Shown here: positions 1,798 through 10,292 of the stretch, one piece after another
How positions within the stretch are numbered: position 1 is the first letter of the stretch
Layout: every line of letters begins with the position of its first letter
Source: Nautilia profundicola AmH
GTDB taxonomy: Bacteria; Campylobacterota; Campylobacteria; Campylobacterales; Nautiliaceae
Direction: 5' to 3'
Assembly (NCBI RefSeq): GCF_000021725.1
Contig: NC_012115.1
Span: 62,001-126,000 of the forward strand
DNA: 64,000 bases
Translations under genes and position numbers: made by a program
Notes under the pieces: model-generated
The model's database searches: none
What the model was told of the DNA's origin: nothing
Seen by the model: only the letters and a program-made list of their open reading frames with translations

Positions 1798-2937
1798 ATG
1801 AAAAAGAAATTGTTAGCACTTGGGCTTAGCGCACTTGTTGCAAGTACATTAGCGGCAAAAGAAATTAAAGTAGGTGTTTTACAACCTTTAACAGGGCCTA
1901 TTGCATCATTTGGACAAAAAACACTTGATGGTATCAAGCTTGTTCATGAAAAATATAATACTTTACCAAACGGTGATAAAATTGTATTAGTTGTAGTTGA
2001 CGGTCAATTTGACAAAGTTCAAACTGTTAATGGTTATAAAAGATTAGTAAGTGGTGAAAAAGTTGTAGCAGTTGAAGGACCTCTTGCAAGTTCAATGAGT
2101 TTGTCAATTAAAAGATTTGCTGGAGCAACAAAAACTCCTACAGTTACTCAAATTGCTACAAATCCAAGAGTTACAAAAGGAAGCAAATATATCACAAGAG
2201 CATGTTTCACAGATGATTTCCAAGGGACAGTAGCAGCAAAATATGCATTAAAACACAATCTTAAAACTGCTGTAATCGTTTTCGATATGAAACAGGATTA
2301 TTCAGTTGGTCTTGCAAAAGCTTTTGAAAAAGCTTATAAAAAAGACGGAGGAAAAGTTCTTAAAAAATTATTTATTAACAGTGGTGATAAAGATTTTAAC
2401 GCGCAAGTTGCACAAATTAAAAAACTTAACCCTGATTTTATCTATACACCAATTTATGCGCCTGAAGAAGGTCTACTTGTAAGACAACTTAGAGCAGCTG
2501 GCGTAAATTCTCCTGTAATGGGTGGTGACGGAATTGCAGACCCTGCACTTCTTAAAAAACTTGCTGGAAAAGCAGCTAACGGTGTAATGTATACTGATCA
2601 CTTCGACCCTGCAAAAGCACCAACTCCGCTTTCTAAAGAATTTATTAAAGACTTTAAAGCTAAATACGGAAGATCTCCAAGTGCATTCGCAGCAACTGGT
2701 GCTGACGGATATTTATTAATTTACAACGCAATTAAACAATGCGATACTAAAGCTAATAAAACTAATCTTCAGTTCAAACAATGTATCAACGATGCACTTA
2801 GACATACTAAAAACCTTGAAGCGGTTACAGGTTATTTAACAATCGATCCTAAAACTGGAAACCCAATTAACAAACCTGCAGTTGTTGAGGAAATCGTAGA
2901 CGGAAAAGTTGTATTTAAAGAACTTATCAAGCCTTAA
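1798..2937 (+). CDS. Branched-chain amino-acid-type ABC transporter substrate-binding protein (LivK-like)
   Basis: A 379-residue periplasmic binding protein of the type I fold used for leucine, isoleucine and valine (Peripla_BP_6 family). A cleavable signal peptide covers about residues 1-20 (MKKKLLALGLSALVASTLAA). The mature N-terminus has the family pattern VGVLQPLTGPIASFGQ. The protein would capture a ligand in the periplasm and deliver it to the LivH/LivM permeases encoded at 5104-7073. Ligand identity is uncertain, because members also bind amides, urea and aromatic acids. It is separated from the permease genes by a strong terminator and two sensor genes, so it is probably a monocistronic, highly expressed unit. 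Confidence 0.88.
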   Translation: MKKKLLALGLSALVASTLAAKEIKVGVLQPLTGPIASFGQKTLDGIKLVHEKYNTLPNGDKIVLVVVDGQFDKVQTVNGYKRLVSGEKVVAVEGPLASSMSLSIKRFAGATKTPTVTQIATNPRVTKGSKYITRACFTDDFQGTVAAKYALKHNLKTAVIVFDMKQDYSVGLAKAFEKAYKKDGGKVLKKLFINSGDKDFNAQVAQIKKLNPDFIYTPIYAPEEGLLVRQLRAAGVNSPVMGGDGIADPALLKKLAGKAANGVMYTDHFDPAKAPTPLSKEFIKDFKAKYGRSPSAFAATGADGYLLIYNAIKQCDTKANKTNLQFKQCINDALRHTKNLEAVTGYLTIDPKTGNPINKPAVVEEIVDGKVVFKELIKP

Positions 2938-2958
2938 TTTTTTCTCCCTTTCGGGAGT

Positions 2959-2998
2959 AAAAACATTAAACGGCATTATGGTGCTTTTTAATGTTTTT
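2959..2998 (+). terminator. Rho-independent terminator after the binding-protein gene
   Basis: A 12-bp perfect arm (AAAAACATTAAA at 2959-2970, pairing with 2987-2998) encloses an inner GCA/TGC pair and ends in a T-run. A second small hairpin (CTCCC-TTTC-GGGAG, 2944-2957) lies just before it. The A-rich left arm would also let it work from the other strand. Confidence 0.8.
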
Positions 2999-3019
2999 AT
3001 TATTTAATAAAGAGGAAAA

Positions 3020-4696
3020 ATGGATTATAGTAAACCGATTGAAATTGCACCTAATGTATATTGGGTAGGATATGTAATACCCGATGACCCATTCCAGTGT
3101 CATGTGTATTTGATTAAAAACGGAAGCGAATCTATTTTAATCGATCCCGGGAGTATGATTACGTTTCCGGTTGTTTTGGAAAAATTGAATTCTTTGATTA
3201 ATTTGAAAGACATTAAGTATATTATTATGCATCATCAGGATCCTGATATAGTCGGATGTTATTCTACGTTTGAGAAAATTATGCCAAAAAATGAAAGGTA
3301 TATTGTTACCCATTGGCGAACCGAAATGCTTTTAAAACATTATATGTGGGACACTCCTTTTTATCTTATAGACCAGCACAACTGGAAATTAAAAGCCGGA
3401 AAGAGAGAACTTGAGTTTGTATTTACCCCATATGCTCATTTTCCTGGAGCATTTTGTACTTATGATAAAAAAACCGGTATTTTATTTTCAAGTGATTTAT
3501 TCGGTGGGTTAACGGATGAATTTTCACTTTTTGCAAAAGATGTCGACGATTACTTTGAAGCGGCCAAACCGTTCCATAAGCATTATATGCCGAGTAGAGA
3601 AGTATTACACCATGCGCTGAAACAGGTTCAGAAAAAACATCCTTTAATGATTGCACCTCAACACGGTTCAATAATCAAAAAAGATATGATCGATCCGCTT
3701 ATAGATAAGCTTAAAGAATTAGAATGCGGGCTTTATTTGTTGGATGATTATGAAAGTGACTTATATATTTTAAACAAAACCGATGAGGTTTTAAAACAGT
3801 TTTTTAAAGACACGGTATCGCTCAGTTCATTTAATTTAGTGCTTAGAAATCTTTTTGATAATATTAAGAAAGTTATTCCTTCTATTCAAAAGATTGAAAT
3901 TTGTGGTATTTCTCCTTTATCAGAAGTAGAACATTGTTTTTCTTTCGGAGAAGACCACAAAATAGTTGAAATTGATCATATGGATGAAAATTATTCATTT
4001 AAAAAAGAGCTCAAACAAAACGATAAAAAAATAGGTGACATTTATATAATTATTAATAAAAACATGAATAAAAAAGAAAAAACGCTCCTTGAAATGTTGT
4101 TGAATAAAATATCCGTACCTGTTGCGATTTCTTTAGAAAAAGAACTCATATTAAGAGAACTTGAAGATAGTAACAAAATGCTTTATGAAAAATCAATTTC
4201 AGATCCTTTAACAAAACTTTACAACAGAGAATATATGAAAGAATTTTTATCTCAAAAAGTACAAGAGGCTAAAAGATACAAGTTTCCGTTAAGCGTAGCA
4301 ATGATAGATATAGATTTTTTTAAAAAAATTAATGATACATACGGACATTTAATAGGTGACTGTGTTTTAAAAGAATTGGCTGAACTGCTCAAGGATAATT
4401 TCAGAGGATCCGATATCGTTTCAAGATACGGCGGTGAAGAAATATTTATAATAATGCCTTTTACAGATGGAATTAATGCTTGTAAAAAGTTGGAAAATTT
4501 TAGAAAGTTTGTTGAAGAACATGATTTTTGCGAAAAAAAGAGAATCAAAATTACAATTAGTGCAGGAGTGAGTGAATTTGATTTTGGTGAGGATATTGAA
4601 GATTTAATATTAAAAGCTGACAGAAAAGTGTATTTTGCTAAAAAACAAGGAAGAAATAAAGTTGTGTGTGATAAAGGGGAAGGAAGTGATACTTAA
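3020..4696 (+). CDS. Di-iron (ODP/flavodiiron-type) metallo-beta-lactamase domain fused to a GGDEF diguanylate cyclase
   Basis: 558 residues. The N-terminal half is a metallo-beta-lactamase fold of the flavodiiron/ODP branch. Candidate iron ligands are H72, D74, D76, H140, D159 and H215, with spacings of 63, 18 and 55 residues that closely follow flavodiiron proteins; the usual H-x-E-x-D is H-x-D-x-D here. There is no flavodoxin domain. A linker region (about 230-390) precedes a GGDEF domain (about 395-552) with DPLTKLYNRE, DIDFFKKINDTYGH and an active-site loop G471-G472-E473-E474-I475, so cyclic di-GMP synthesis is plausible. By family precedent the di-iron domain senses oxygen or iron redox state; that is inference. 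The start has a GAGGA ribosome site. The gene overlaps the PAS gene downstream. Confidence 0.85.
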   Translation: MDYSKPIEIAPNVYWVGYVIPDDPFQCHVYLIKNGSESILIDPGSMITFPVVLEKLNSLINLKDIKYIIMHHQDPDIVGCYSTFEKIMPKNERYIVTHWRTEMLLKHYMWDTPFYLIDQHNWKLKAGKRELEFVFTPYAHFPGAFCTYDKKTGILFSSDLFGGLTDEFSLFAKDVDDYFEAAKPFHKHYMPSREVLHHALKQVQKKHPLMIAPQHGSIIKKDMIDPLIDKLKELECGLYLLDDYESDLYILNKTDEVLKQFFKDTVSLSSFNLVLRNLFDNIKKVIPSIQKIEICGISPLSEVEHCFSFGEDHKIVEIDHMDENYSFKKELKQNDKKIGDIYIIINKNMNKKEKTLLEMLLNKISVPVAISLEKELILRELEDSNKMLYEKSISDPLTKLYNREYMKEFLSQKVQEAKRYKFPLSVAMIDIDFFKKINDTYGHLIGDCVLKELAELLKDNFRGSDIVSRYGGEEIFIIMPFTDGINACKKLENFRKFVEEHDFCEKKRIKITISAGVSEFDFGEDIEDLILKADRKVYFAKKQGRNKVVCDKGEGSDT

Positions 4697-5102
4697 TGAA
4701 GAAGTAAGGTTTGAAGATATAAATAAAGACAATAGGCCTGTTGTTTCGAAAACAGATATAACAGGGAAAATCACTTATACGAACTCGGTTTTTAGGGCAC
4801 TATCTGGATATGAAAAAGGTGAAATGGTAGGTAGACCGCACAGTATTGTAAGACATCCTGATATGCCTAAAAAAGTATTTAGAGAAATGTGGAATACCAT
4901 TTTGCAAGGCAAAGAATGGAATGGAATTGTAAAAAATTTAAGAAAAGATGGAAAATATTACTGGGTAGATGCTACAATTACGCCTATAAAAGATGAAAAT
5001 AATGATATAATCGGTTTTATTTCTGCAAGAAGAAAAGTTAGCGATGATGTTAAAAAAGAATATGAAAAAATCTATAAAGAAATGAGAGAAAAGGAAAAGT
5101 AA
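4686..5102 (+). CDS. Aer-like single PAS-domain redox sensor protein
   Basis: About 138 residues forming one PAS domain of the Aer/CetB type: SKTDITGKITYTN, then the characteristic VGRPHSIVRHPDMPKKVFRE block, then W-x-G-I-V-K-N-L-R-K-D-G and YYWVDATITPI. This group usually binds FAD and reports redox state or electron-transport activity. No output domain follows, only a charged helix (about 25 residues), so it must signal through a partner. I chose GTG at 4686 because AGGGG sits 6 bp upstream; an ATG at 4635 in the same frame has no ribosome site and would overlap the upstream gene by 62 bp. The gene overlaps the di-iron GGDEF gene by 11 bp and ends 1 bp before livH. Confidence 0.83.
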   Translation: MILNEEVRFEDINKDNRPVVSKTDITGKITYTNSVFRALSGYEKGEMVGRPHSIVRHPDMPKKVFREMWNTILQGKEWNGIVKNLRKDGKYYWVDATITPIKDENNDIIGFISARRKVSDDVKKEYEKIYKEMREKEK

Positions 5103-5103
5103 G

Positions 5104-6018
5104 ATGGACATCGGTTTTGTGTTGCAACAGATTGTAAACGGGTTTTCGCTTGGAAGTATGTACGCATTAATTGCAATCGGGTATACATTGGTTTATGGTG
5201 TGTTAAGACTTATTAACTTTGCACACGGTGATATTATGATGGTGGGTGCTTTTATGGCATTTATTTTTTTCAAAATAATCGGACTTAATTTTTATGTTTC
5301 GGTATTGTTTGCGATCATTTTTACAGCCGGGGTCGGTATTTTGACATATGCAAGCGCATATAAACCTTTATTGGATAAAGATGCGCCTAAAATTTCACTT
5401 TTGATTACAGCAATTGGTATTTCATTTTTCTTGGAATCTTTATTTAACGTTATTGCCAATCAATATTTGGGAGGAACATATCAGGCTTTCTATTTTCCTA
5501 AATGGTTTTCTCATATTTTACATGTAGGTTCACTTACAGTTCCGGTATTGACAGTTCTTGTTCCGATTTTAACATTGGCGTTATTAGGTATTGTGTTATT
5601 TATATTATATAGAACGAAAATAGGTATAGCAATTAGGGCATTGGCATTTGATATCCAAACAGTAAAATTAATGGGTGCAGATTCAAATAAAATCATTGCT
5701 TTTGTATTTGCATTAGGTAGTGCGCTTGCAGCAATAGGAGGAATTGCTTATGCTATGGCTTACCCGAGCATTGACCCTTATATGGGTATGCTTGTAGGTC
5801 TTAAAGCGTTTGCTGCCGCTGTTGTTGGTGGAATCGGAAGTGTTACAGGTGCGGTAATAGGTGGGTTTATTTTAGGATTTGCAGAAGTTGCAATTCCTGG
5901 GTTCTTCCCAGAACTCGGAGGATGGAAAGATGCGTTTGCATTTATTTTCCTGATTTTCGTACTACTGTTTAAACCTACAGGAATTATGGGTATAGATTTT
6001 GAAAGACAAAGGTTTTAA
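5104..6018 (+). CDS. livH: Branched-chain amino-acid-type ABC transporter permease LivH
   Basis: 304 residues, almost entirely hydrophobic, with about eight transmembrane segments. The start QQIVNGFSLGSMYALIAIGYTLVYG followed by LRLINFAHGDIMMVGA is the signature of the LivH permease family, and GLKAFAAAVVGGIGSVTGAVIGG is the loop that contacts the ATPase. It forms a heterodimer with LivM in the inner membrane. Its stop overlaps the livM start (TAATG). The upstream neighbour is the PAS sensor gene, 1 bp away. No livG or livF ATPase gene follows, so the transporter must use ATPases encoded elsewhere. Confidence 0.92.
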   Translation: MDIGFVLQQIVNGFSLGSMYALIAIGYTLVYGVLRLINFAHGDIMMVGAFMAFIFFKIIGLNFYVSVLFAIIFTAGVGILTYASAYKPLLDKDAPKISLLITAIGISFFLESLFNVIANQYLGGTYQAFYFPKWFSHILHVGSLTVPVLTVLVPILTLALLGIVLFILYRTKIGIAIRALAFDIQTVKLMGADSNKIIAFVFALGSALAAIGGIAYAMAYPSIDPYMGMLVGLKAFAAAVVGGIGSVTGAVIGGFILGFAEVAIPGFFPELGGWKDAFAFIFLIFVLLFKPTGIMGIDFERQRF

Positions 6019-7073
6019 TGATGGAAAAGGTAAAATTAAATTTAAAAGATATGAGTGCCGCAAAATATTTTGGAATAATTGCTGCGGTAACAGCTGTATT
6101 TTTAGGATTTTTATATATTTCACCAAACTTGTTTAATGATTATACGATTACGGTATTGGGGAATGTGTATATTTTTATTATCCTTGCTGTCAGTTATAAT
6201 TTAATCAATGGTGTTACAGGGCAGTTTTCACTTGAACCTAATGGATTTGTAGCTATAGGTGCGTACGTTACGGCACTTTTAATGCTAAGTCCGGAAGTAA
6301 AAGCTGATATGTATATGATTGCAGACCCTTATCCGTTTATTAAAGACATATTTTTACCTAATCCGTTTTTTACATTAATTATCAGCGGAATCGTTTCAGC
6401 TTTAGTAGCACTGACACTTGCTTTTCCTGTATTTAGGGTAAGAGGTGATTATCTTGCTATCGTTACTTTAGGATTCGGATTTATTATCAGAATTTTCTTA
6501 ATCAATAATCCGGAAATTTCAAACGGTTCTATGGGGCTTGACTCAATTCCCGGGTTTGCAAGTTATTTCTGGATAGGGTTTACCGCTCTTGTAACTATCG
6601 TACTTGTTTATAATATTGTATATTCTAAATACGGACGTGCGATGAAAGCGGTAAGAGATGATGAAGATGCGGCTCTTGCGATGGGTGTTAATACATTTAA
6701 AACAAAAACATTGGCTTTTATGACAAGTGCATTTTTTGAAGGTGTGGGAGGAGGACTTTTAGCAAGTTCTATCGGTTCAATTTCTCCTGATCAGTTTACG
6801 TTTATGCTAACATTCCAATTATTAATTATTATCGTTCTTGGCGGTCTTGGAAGTATGAGTGGTGCTATTATAGGAACGCTTCTGTTTATCGGCGGTATGG
6901 AAGTGTTGAGACCTCTTGACGACGCAACGTGGTCAATTGGTCCTGTGCATGGAATTCCGGGCCTTAGAATGGTTGTGTTTAGTTTAATTCTTTTAGGCAT
7001 AATGTTATTTGCGAGAAAAGGGCTTTTCGGTGACAAAGAAATTTGGGATTATGTTAAATTTAAAAAGAAATAG
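6018..7073 (+). CDS. livM: Branched-chain amino-acid-type ABC transporter permease LivM
   Basis: 351 residues with an N-terminal helix and about eight further membrane segments. Family marks are GQFSLEPNGFVAIGAY near residues 70-85, FRVRGDYLAIVTLGFGFIIRI, and the ATPase-coupling loop IIVLGGLGSMSGAIIG. It pairs with LivH to form the inner-membrane channel. The first ATG shares its A with the livH stop codon; a second ATG follows at once, so the exact start is uncertain by one codon. A 16-bp gap leads to thiG rather than to the ATPase genes that normally complete a liv operon. Confidence 0.92.
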   Translation: MMEKVKLNLKDMSAAKYFGIIAAVTAVFLGFLYISPNLFNDYTITVLGNVYIFIILAVSYNLINGVTGQFSLEPNGFVAIGAYVTALLMLSPEVKADMYMIADPYPFIKDIFLPNPFFTLIISGIVSALVALTLAFPVFRVRGDYLAIVTLGFGFIIRIFLINNPEISNGSMGLDSIPGFASYFWIGFTALVTIVLVYNIVYSKYGRAMKAVRDDEDAALAMGVNTFKTKTLAFMTSAFFEGVGGGLLASSIGSISPDQFTFMLTFQLLIIIVLGGLGSMSGAIIGTLLFIGGMEVLRPLDDATWSIGPVHGIPGLRMVVFSLILLGIMLFARKGLFGDKEIWDYVKFKKK

Positions 7074-7089: not shown

Positions 7090-7869
7090 ATGAGCGATAT
7101 TTTAAAAATAGGAAAATATGAATTTACAAGCAGACTGATAGTAGGAAGCGGTAAATATCCAGATTTTCAAACTACAAGAGACGCAACACTTGCAAGTGGT
7201 GCGGAAATGATTACTGTTGCGGTAAGACGTGTAAATATAATGGATCCTAATGAAGAAAACTTAATGGATTATTTCAAAGATACGGATGTTAAGATTTTGC
7301 CAAACTCTGCTGGTTGTACTACGGCAGAAGAAGCGATCACACTTTTCAGACTTGTGAGAGAAGCTACAGGAATTGATATTATTAAACTTGAAGTTATCGG
7401 TGACACGGCTAAAACTCTTTATCCAGATGTAATGGAGACGCTAAAGGCGTGTGAAGTATTAGCCAAAGAAGATTTCACAATTATGGCTTATACGAACGAT
7501 GATCCTATTATGGCAAAAAGATTGGAAAATGCCGGAGCTCATGCGGTTATGCCTCTTGCCGCGCCTATCGGAAGCGGACTTGGCGTTCAAAACAGATACA
7601 ATGTTGTATTTGTAAAAGACGCTGTAAACGTACCTGTAATTGTTGATGCGGGTATAGGAACTGCAAGCGACGCTGCAGTAGCGATGGAACTTGGAGCTGA
7701 CGGAGTGCTTACAAATACGGCAATCGCACAAGCCAAAAACCCTATAGCGATGGCGGAAGCTATGAAACATGCAGTTATTGCAGGTAGAATGGCTTACAAA
7801 GCCGGAAGAATACCTAAAAAGCCTTATGCAACAGCCTCATCTCCTCTTGAAGGTCTAATAGAGTTTTAA
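7090..7869 (+). CDS. thiG: Thiazole synthase ThiG
   Basis: 259 residues, the usual length. ThiG builds the thiazole phosphate ring of thiamine from deoxyxylulose phosphate, dehydroglycine and the ThiS thiocarboxylate. The Schiff-base lysine is K99 in [10 protein letters not shown], and phosphate-binding glycines appear in [11 protein letters not shown] and [10 protein letters not shown]. The ribosome site is AAGGAG. It seems to be the last gene of the sensor-livHM transcript, since a clean terminator follows within 5 bp of the stop. No other thiamine gene is in the window. Confidence 0.96.
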
Positions 7870-7873
7870 TTAT

Positions 7874-7899
7874 AAGCGGGGATTCCCGCTTTTATTTTT
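7874..7899 (+). terminator. Terminator after thiG
   Basis: Perfect 7-bp stem AAGCGGG/CCCGCTT with a 4-base loop (GATT), followed by a T-rich tail. It begins 5 bp after the thiG stop and closes the operon that starts at 3020. Confidence 0.85.
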
Positions 7900-7992: not shown

Positions 7993-8757
7993 ATGAAAAC
8001 ATTTGTATTTATTTTATTAGTAGGAATAGTTATTTATTTTGGAGCGGTTATTTATTTGTATGTTACGCAAGAAAGTAAAATATTTAATCGAAAATGGGCT
8101 AAAGAGTATGTGCCTAAGGTTGCTAAAAAGATATCGTTTAAAACAAGTGATGGAATTATTTTGGAAGGTGCGGTTACAAAAAACAATGAAAACTCACCTT
8201 TGGTTTTGTATTTTAGCGGTAATGCTAATAATGTTATTGAGTTTTTAGATAATATTGCCCCTAAAATCAGAGGATTTAATTTTATAGGTTTTAATTATCC
8301 GGGATATGCAGGAAGTGAAGGCAAACCTTGTGAGAAATGTATATTAAAATATTCTCTTGAGATATTTGACAAATACAAACCAGATATCATTATCGGAAGA
8401 AGTTTGGGAAGCGCAGTGGCAGCGTATGTAGCATCTAAAAGAGGCATCAAAAAACTTGTTTTAATAACACCTTTTGACTCAATTGTTAATGTAGCAAAAA
8501 GTAAATATCCTTTTTTACCTGTTGATAAATTAGTAAAATATAAATTTACTGAGATTGAATGGATAAAAAAAGTTAAAGCACCCGTTAATGTTTTATTGGT
8601 TGAAAATGATGATATCATTCCGCAAAGAAATATTGATAATCTATTAAAAAACATACCAAACTTAAATAAGAAAATTATAATTAATGGTGTTAAACATGGA
8701 TATATATATGAATATAAAAATATTGAAAAGGTAATAGAGGATTTATTGCTTCAATAA
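7993..8757 (+). CDS. Membrane-anchored alpha/beta hydrolase (BEM46/YfhR-like)
   Basis: 254 residues. A single N-terminal transmembrane helix (about 3-24) anchors a serine hydrolase domain. Visible marks are the oxyanion strand LVLYFSGNANNV, the nucleophile elbow GRSLGS with the serine at residue 137, an acid in the VENDD region (about 212-215) and the histidine in VKHGY (about 236). This is the BEM46/YfhR-like S33 group; substrates are generally unknown. It is preceded by TACAAT about 40 bp upstream and an AAAAGG ribosome site. Its 3' end overlaps the convergent diguanylate cyclase gene by 7 bp. Confidence 0.83.
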   Translation: MKTFVFILLVGIVIYFGAVIYLYVTQESKIFNRKWAKEYVPKVAKKISFKTSDGIILEGAVTKNNENSPLVLYFSGNANNVIEFLDNIAPKIRGFNFIGFNYPGYAGSEGKPCEKCILKYSLEIFDKYKPDIIIGRSLGSAVAAYVASKRGIKKLVLITPFDSIVNVAKSKYPFLPVDKLVKYKFTEIEWIKKVKAPVNVLLVENDDIIPQRNIDNLLKNIPNLNKKIIINGVKHGYIYEYKNIEKVIEDLLLQ

Positions 8758-9794
8758 TAAACAGCTTTATTTCTTCCGGTTTTTTTCGCTACATAAAGTG
8801 CTTTATCAGCGTTAATTAAAGCTTGTTGAATATTGTCTTCATTGTAAGACTGAATAATATATATACCTAAACTCACCGTTATTTGTATCATTGTATTTTC
8901 GTTAATTGAAATATGCATGTTTCTTATGGCGTTTAAAATTTTATCAACAATAGCATCTACGTCTTTTTCCGAAGTATCATACAAAAGAAGTACAAATTCT
9001 TCGCCTCCAATTCTTGCAAACAAATCATTTTGTCTAATAATTTTTTGAATTTCTGAAACAAAACTTTTTAACACGATATCTCCGGCTTTGTGTCCATATG
9101 TATCGTTTATTTTTTTAAAATGATCGATATCCATCATGATAAGAGTTAGTGTTTTTTCTTCTCTTTTTGCTTGCATTAAGAGTTTTTGGGCAATTTTAAA
9201 AAAAGCCCTCCTGTTAAAAATTTGAGTTAGCTCATCTATTAAAGCAAGTTTTTCTAATTTTTTACTTTGCTCAAGTGTTTCTTTTGCGTATTTGTCTAAT
9301 TGTAGGGAAATTAAAAAACCTAATATTGAAAATGCTACGAGACTCATTATAAGGGTCATGAAGGAAAATGCATCGATATTATATAGATTGAACAGTTTTA
9401 TAAAAAAAAGAGCAAATAAACTATAAACTGAGATGATTATGGCTATTTTTTTATTTGTTGTAATATATGCTGTTAAAATGGTAAAATCAACCCATACAGG
9501 TAGAAAAACATTATATTTTGCAATAACAGTTTGAAGTGTTATAAAAGTAATAATTACAAAATATGTTACTAACTGTATTGTATAAAGTTTATTTTTGCAT
9601 TTTAATAAGCAAACATACATTGCTATTAAAAAGAAAAGCAGACTTGTTGTGTTTAATGTTGCCAATGACGGTCTTGGTATTATGTCTAACAGTCTTAAAA
9701 CAAAAAATACAAATGTAATAATTATTGCAAGAAACAAACTTATTCTTGTAACATTATATTTAAAACTATCTAATCCTAATATATTTTTATCCAT
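8751..9794 (-). CDS. Membrane diguanylate cyclase (GGDEF)
   Basis: 347 residues. About six transmembrane helices fill residues 15-170, without a recognisable named sensor domain. A short helix (about 172-188) leads into a complete GGDEF domain: DELTQIFNRRAFF, DIDHFKKINDTYGHKAGD, and the active site RIGGEEF at about residues 261-267. It should make cyclic di-GMP at the inner membrane. No RxxD inhibitory site is evident at the usual position ahead of GGEEF. The gene is convergent with, and overlaps, the hydrolase gene by 7 bp. An AAAAGGAG ribosome site precedes the ATG. Confidence 0.9.
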   Translation of the reverse strand: MDKNILGLDSFKYNVTRISLFLAIIITFVFFVLRLLDIIPRPSLATLNTTSLLFFLIAMYVCLLKCKNKLYTIQLVTYFVIITFITLQTVIAKYNVFLPVWVDFTILTAYITTNKKIAIIISVYSLFALFFIKLFNLYNIDAFSFMTLIMSLVAFSILGFLISLQLDKYAKETLEQSKKLEKLALIDELTQIFNRRAFFKIAQKLLMQAKREEKTLTLIMMDIDHFKKINDTYGHKAGDIVLKSFVSEIQKIIRQNDLFARIGGEEFVLLLYDTSEKDVDAIVDKILNAIRNMHISINENTMIQITVSLGIYIIQSYNEDNIQQALINADKALYVAKKTGRNKAVYY

Positions 9795-9857: not shown

Positions 9858-9947
9858 TGGCGGAGAGGGCGGGATTCGAACCCGCGGAGGCCTTGCGACC
9901 TCAACGGCTTTCAAGGCCGCCGGTTTCAACCACTCACCCACCTCTCC
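9858..9947 (-). tRNA. tRNA-Ser (UGA)
   Basis: A 90-base gene including an encoded CCA end. The acceptor stem GGAGAGG pairs with CCTCTCC, the T-arm contains GGTTCGAATCC, and a long variable arm typical of serine tRNA is present. The anticodon TGA reads from 9913 to 9911. It is the last gene of a four-tRNA cluster. Confidence 0.97.
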
Positions 9948-9981
9948 ATTTATTGTTTATAAACAATAATTTATCTGGGAA

Positions 9982-10068
9982 TGGTGCCCGGGGCCGGACT
10001 CGAACCGGCACGGGATTGCTCCCGAGGGATTTTAAGTCCCTTGCGTCTACCAATTCCGCCACCCGGGC
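9982..10068 (-). tRNA. tRNA-Leu (UAA)
   Basis: 87 bases including an encoded CCA. The acceptor stem is GCCCGGG, the T-loop is GGTTCGAGTCC, and the long class II variable arm fits leucine. The anticodon loop CTTAAAA has anticodon TAA at 10034-10032. Confidence 0.97.
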
Positions 10069-10114
10069 TTTGTGAAGTGAAAGTTTATCAAAAAACTCTT
10101 AAAGTTCCCTTAAA

Positions 10115-10189
10115 TGGAGGCGCCACCCGGATTCGAACCGGGGATCAGGGCTTTGCAGGCCCCTGCCTTAGCCACTTGGCTATGGCGCC
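10115..10189 (-). tRNA. tRNA-Cys (GCA)
   Basis: 75 bases including an encoded CCA. The acceptor stem is GGCGCCA with discriminator U, as expected for cysteine tRNA. The anticodon GCA is at 10156-10154, and the T-arm carries GGTTCGAATCC. Confidence 0.97.
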
Positions 10190-10215
10190 GTGTAAACTTA
10201 AAGCTTTAAGTTTAA

Positions 10216-10292
10216 TGGAGCGGGCTACGGGATTCGAACCCGCGACCTCCACCTTGGCAAGGTGGCGCTCTAGCCAGCTGAGCTAAGCCCGC
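10216..10292 (-). tRNA. tRNA-Gly (GCC)
   Basis: 77 bases including an encoded CCA. The acceptor stem is GCGGGCT, the D-arm has TAGCTCAGCTGG, and the anticodon GCC is at 10258-10256. It is the first gene of the cluster, about 8 bases after the predicted transcription start. Confidence 0.97.

Follow-up and report, generated by a model that had tools for sequence, protein, structure and literature searches.

An ODP-GAF-GGDEF protein, putatively an oxygen- or iron-responsive diguanylate cyclase, encoded in the branched-chain amino acid transport operon of Nautilia profundicola

The closest described relatives of the protein analysed here are the stand-alone ODPs of Treponema denticola (TDE2498) and Thermotoga maritima (structures 6qnm, 6qrq, 6qwo, and 6r9n; Pfam family PF19583), which share with it the same metallo-beta-lactamase (MBL) fold, the motif HQDPD[VI], and the later ligands, with an identity of about 25-28% over the domain. 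Stand-alone ODPs act on chemotaxis receptors, whereas in N. profundicola the ODP domain is joined to a GAF-like and a GGDEF domain; to our knowledge, the ODP sensors known from experiments act via chemotaxis receptors only, and none of them via a cyclase. The fusion of ODPs to signal-transduction domains has already been described (Muok et al. 2019, in the summary given by the TREND paper, PMC7319448), and, as far as the summary goes, those proteins share with the present one the arrangement of ODP and output in a single chain. In the same summary, no earlier description was found of a GAF relay, of a position in a liv operon, or of a metal-free, cyclase-dead lineage, and a search of the papers available disclosed none on an ODP-cyclase. 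A census of the sensory domains of cyclic di-GMP signalling lists hemerythrin as the only di-iron sensor, ODP not being entered (PMC8846402).

Nautilia profundicola is a strict anaerobe that has to sense and avoid oxygen, and the genome of strain AmH (CP001279) harbors many GGDEF/EAL genes and a cyclic di-GMP system of unusual size (PMC2628731). EAL was found at 16 places in this genome. The window analysed here, i.e., the whole stretch of 64,000 nucleotides, contains a gene whose 558-amino-acid product is, with moderate confidence, a soluble putative O2/Fe(II)-responsive diguanylate cyclase subject to product inhibition. The gene is embedded in a run of liv genes, with the following features (window coordinates):

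1798..2937, + strand, livJ, branched-chain amino-acid periplasmic binding protein (PF13458, E 5e-49)
2944-2957, + strand, short CTCCC/GGGAG hairpin between livJ and the ODP-GGDEF start
2956-3001, + strand, AT-rich long hairpin between livJ and the ODP-GGDEF start
3011..3016, + strand, RBS-like AGAGGA (from the sequence) ahead of the ATG at 3020
3020..4696, + strand, ODP-GAF-GGDEF protein, 558 aa, putative O2/Fe-responsive diguanylate cyclase
3092..3667, + strand, ODP domain, residues 25-216 (PF19583, alignment with 6qrq/6qnm, Foldseek)
3233-3247, + strand, ODP ligand codons H72-D74-D76
3437-3439, 3494-3496, and 3662-3664, + strand, ODP ligand codons H140, D159, and H215, respectively
3752..4195, + strand, GAF-like domain and coiled-coil linker, residues 245-392 (AF2, Foldseek)
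4196..4660, + strand, GGDEF domain, residues 393-547 (PF00990, Foldseek, motif alignment)
4403-4414, + strand, I-site R462-G-S-D465
4430-4444, + strand, GGEEI, residues 471-475
4686..5102, + strand, stand-alone Aer/MmoS-type PAS protein, 138 aa from GTG 4686
5104..6018, + strand, livH permease (PF02653; NCBIfam LivH, under its cut-off; synteny)
6018..7073, + strand, livM permease (PF02653; synteny)
7090..7869, + strand, thiG-like gene closing the gene run (93-100% identity in family loci)
7874-7891, terminator-like hairpin past the thiG-like gene
9858..10292, - strand, four tRNA genes (Ser, Leu, Cys, Gly)

Both open reading frames of the original prediction (558 and 138 aa) were found where it had placed them. 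Among solved structures, the livJ product is best matched by 3td9 (E 7e-72), which binds branched-chain amino acids, and the last gene of the run is the one that, from our own reading of the sequence, we take to be thiG. A second GGDEF protein, apparently membrane-bound, is encoded nearby (8751-9794, - strand), with 65% identity to its counterpart at the same place in the genome G028. The small ORFs at 9858-10292 (- strand) were rejected as proteins, being translations of the tRNA genes.

The N-terminal domain matches the ODP family over the full profile (positions 1-194; E 1.1e-62; 211.8 bits vs. a cut-off of 27.2), and its AF2 model is matched by Foldseek to the ODP structures 6qwo, 6qrq, and 6r9n (peroxy-diiron) with a TMt of about 0.8-0.86. 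The six ligands named beforehand (H72, D74, D76, H140, D159, and H215), together with Ile77, align with the crystal-structure ODPs 6qrq and 6qnm, which read HQDPDV where the window protein reads HQDPDI. Since the solved ODPs, too, have HQDPD with a branched residue after it, the replacement of Glu by Asp and of His by Ile, which the original prediction had read as sensor-type rather than reductase, turns out to be a signature of the ODP family; a flavodiiron-type protein in the locus L038 reads HLEPDH at this motif. The ligands are invariant in all the 18 intact ODP-GGDEF sequences checked, one of which is partial. Both the alignment and the model support the assignment of the MBL domain to the sensor-type ODPs, and not to the flavodiiron reductases. 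The stretch D-P-F-Q-C-H (residues 23-28, window 3086-3103) is common to ODP-GGDEF and ODP-kinase proteins; stand-alone ODPs carry S-V-N-Q or Q-T-N in its place, and its His/Cys pair, a feature of the fused subfamily alone, is gone from the degenerate copies described below.

The MBL domain had been predicted to be fused straight to the GGDEF domain. This does not hold, since about 150 residues (245-392) lie between the two and have the fold of a GAF domain followed by a coiled-coil linker. When this region was modelled alone with AF2 (mean pLDDT 81), GAF domains accounted for almost all of the top Foldseek matches (best E 6e-4, prob 1.00), the similarity being weak (TMq about 0.5-0.56); no Pfam match was obtained for it, even at an E of 10. 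By this weak fold similarity of the model, the region looks like a GAF domain. The AF2 model of the full-length protein, built from four sequences, has a mean pLDDT of 78 and a pTM of 0.48, a value that makes the arrangement of the domains unreliable.

The GGDEF domain (PF00990, E 3e-42) has a model that matches the structure 3ign with a TMt of 0.91 in Foldseek, and the substrate and metal residues and the loop of a diguanylate cyclase are present (GGEEI, DIDFFKKINDTYGH). The loop is intact, as had been stated, and so is the RGSD I-site; the sequence thus supports the view that the domain has every motif required for the predicted cyclase activity. Within the genus, the ODP-GGDEF gene is under strong purifying selection, with a dN/dS of about 0.03-0.05, a value to be taken as approximate because synonymous sites are saturated.

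Close relatives of the ODP fusion (E <= 1e-60) were disclosed in 38 of the 397 sampled Campylobacteria, belonging to 12 genera. The output is a GGDEF domain in some loci (L113, L118, L120, L121, L123, L125, L128) and, in other Campylobacteria, a histidine kinase (L105, L108, L110, L116, L126), which in one case follows a longer middle region (L114), and there are also ODPs with no output domain (L082-L103). That the outputs are exchangeable while the ODP sensor is of one type speaks for a role in signalling. Outside Campylobacterota, a single candidate match was retrieved (L003, on a 3.2-kb MAG contig of Aquificota), and the plasmid records searched contained no full-length relative. In another family, an ODP-GGDEF gene is apparently split by a frameshift (G036:C1:1199327-1199901, - strand).

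According to the proposed mechanism, the N-terminal ODP would bind two irons in the H-x-D-x-D / H / D / H site and would react with O2, or report the Fe(II)/redox state, as the chemotaxis ODPs do; the change might then be relayed via the dimerising GAF-like domain and the coiled coil, and would set the activity of the C-terminal GGDEF diguanylate cyclase, which is predicted to be limited by its own product at the RxxD I-site. It can also be imagined that the ODP reports cytoplasmic Fe(II), the general redox state, or NO, and not O2, the cyclase following iron loading. The ligand set is identical to that of the ODPs, and vent fluids are rich in iron; moreover, the founding ODP paper speaks, in its title, of an 'Fe[II] and oxygen sensor'. 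The peroxy-diiron structure 6r9n reveals, however, that a ligand derived from O2 fits into the site, and this explanation is considered unlikely.

The gene order of the locus in 17 genomes of the family is serS (reverse), livJ, a variable position, livH, livM, and thiG. The variable position is occupied by an intact ODP-GGDEF gene in five genomes (N. profundicola, G028, and G397, of the same genus; G399 and G405, of another genus), by a degenerate one in four (G004, G039, G402, and G404), by a broken relic in one (G223), and by the PAS gene alone in one (G085), nothing being found there in the remaining six. The linkage between ODP-GGDEF and liv is thus lost or absent in 7/17 genomes, with a relic in an eighth, and the synteny with livHM extends to three genera, or four if the relic is counted. 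In G223, the relic is an ODP-GGDEF gene in three fragments located 5' of livH (L148, 5857-6507, - strand). The ODP-GGDEF gene would appear to be an inserted member of the operon for branched-chain amino-acid transport.

This position, found with livJHM in three genera and as a relic in a fourth, together with the GAF fold, might suggest that the main input is the state of amino acids or transport, with a branched-chain amino acid imported by LivJHM as the ligand of the GAF domain and the ODP only tuning the response; the GAF domain of CodY has a ligand of this kind. However, in the 11 intact copies compared, GAF is less conserved than any other domain (3% of invariant positions vs. 44% for ODP), and 6/11 of these copies have no liv linkage, or none that could be shown, so that such an input seems rather improbable.

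The region between livJ and the ODP-GGDEF gene can fold into a hairpin (2944..3001; MFE -26.9 kcal/mol, z -5.8). A long hairpin is located 5' of all nine liv-linked ODP-GGDEF(-like) genes (z -4.6 to -6.6), divergent in sequence and conserved in shape; none of the seven unlinked copies of ODP-GGDEF is preceded by it (z -0.8 to 2.3). Among the six empty liv loci, it is missing in five, and the sixth (G006) has a large hairpin that differs from it. The hairpin of the window has no match in Rfam, a terminator scan of the gap between livJ and ODP gave nothing, and a promoter scan performed no better than shuffles (31 vs. 27.6). The simplest reading is a processing or attenuation of the transcript between livJ and the downstream genes; the hairpin would probably separate a high expression of livJ from that of the regulator and the permeases.

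The 138-aa protein contains a PAS fold (Pfam, E 5e-19), whose nearest PAS domains are those of 3ewk, presumably MmoS, and of Aer (8dik), in agreement with the Aer-type assignment made beforehand. The original prediction had joined this protein to the ODP-GGDEF one in a single module, and the two might form one complex integrating O2 and the membrane redox state, the Aer-like sequence of the PAS being compatible with FAD binding. The predicted overlap of 11 bp is indeed present in the window, and the PAS gene adjoins the ODP-GGDEF(-like) gene in G028 and G039 too. The overlap is, however, not conserved, being particular to N. profundicola: in its closest relative, G028, the PAS gene starts a few bases past the ODP-GGDEF stop. 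Furthermore, PAS is absent beside 6/9 liv-linked ODP-GGDEF(-like) genes, including that of G397, from the same genus; since it adjoins only three of the nine, the recurrent neighbour of ODP-GGDEF is the transporter. In G085, the PAS gene lies between livJ and livH, and the intact ODP-GGDEF gene is located about 11 kb away. The PAS protein is one of many stand-alone PAS proteins, with eight matches in the N. profundicola genome, and its paralogues are mostly found elsewhere, the commonest site being beside an Hpt protein and hslVU. By synteny, the PAS gene is probably no obligate partner but a mobile stand-alone neighbour, and a single complex of the two proteins can be given little credit. Two further observations concern these loci. 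The liv operon of G085 contains two diverged livJ-like genes and PAS in place of ODP-GGDEF (L132, 4659-6927, - strand), and its livH shares no more than 57-59% identity with that of the window. The PAS paralogues of the loci L138-L142 are located, in several genera, by an Hpt-domain-like protein, a sensor-like protein of ~1030 aa, and hslVU/rplI.

It is extremely improbable that the MBL domain works as a flavodiiron-type reductase of O2/NO, with the GGDEF domain incidental: flavodiiron proteins are distantly similar to it (1ycf, E 1e-12), but the best matches are ODPs, and a flavodiiron reductase is ruled out by the ligands, which are those of ODPs (HQDPDI and not H-x-E-x-D-H), and by the missing flavodoxin domain.

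A sister genus harbors, in the same position of the liv operon, four copies in which the metal histidines and the GGDEF motif are lost (coordinates within each locus):

L129, 3344-4846, - strand, degenerate copy
L130, 4004-5521, + strand, degenerate copy
L146, ~5491-6994, - strand, degenerate copy
L147, ~4682-6160, - strand, degenerate copy

They form one clade in the tree (100/100), with a stem of 2.5 changes per column, and have in common the changes H71Q, H72N, Q73Y, D74E, H140Y, and H215Y, D159 being Glu in three of them; the GTP and GGDEF motifs are gone from all four. Each has an open frame (492-505 aa). At half of the ODP positions all four have the same residue, the corresponding figure for the active set being 44%, and their dN/dS lies at roughly 0.1-0.25, with dS saturated; they are under purifying selection and are not decaying. 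An intact ODP-GGDEF copy is located elsewhere in two of the four genomes. The RxxD I-site and the Arg preceding the lost GGDEF are kept in all four copies, few other cyclase-invariant residues survive (8/44), and a rough estimate puts the chance retention of both the R and the D of the I-site at the order of 5%. These copies are read here as converted to a non-sensing, non-catalytic role; their sequence is suggestive, and only that, of a binding of cyclic di-GMP via the I-site. The presence of a metal- and cyclase-dead version at the same operon position implies that the role of the locus can outlive both sensing and catalysis and that O2 sensing is not always the function retained. As a tentative and speculative extension, the ODP-GAF-GGDEF of the liv operon might serve the Liv transporter no less than O2 sensing: an iron-dependent writer would have become, in the sister genus, a dead but selected I-site reader or scaffold tying cyclic di-GMP to branched-chain uptake, with the hairpin controlling the regulator-permease part.

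The sister-genus copies resemble the known degenerate GGDEF receptors of cyclic di-GMP, in that GGDEF is lost and RxxD kept; unlike those, they carry a ligand-free ODP, and their binding of the nucleotide is putative. At a single operon position, the family has copies that are intact, dead, or deleted, a natural series for testing what becomes of a signalling enzyme after the loss of its sensor and of its catalysis. The intact protein, if active, would make cyclic di-GMP under the control of a di-iron oxygen sensor of the metallo-beta-lactamase type, providing a direct route from O2 exposure to the surface/motility decision in a strict vent anaerobe. It would follow the same logic as the heme-globin cyclases of the DosC type and the hemerythrin-GGDEF proteins, in which O2 at an iron centre sets the activity of GGDEF, starting from a sensor fold unrelated to theirs.
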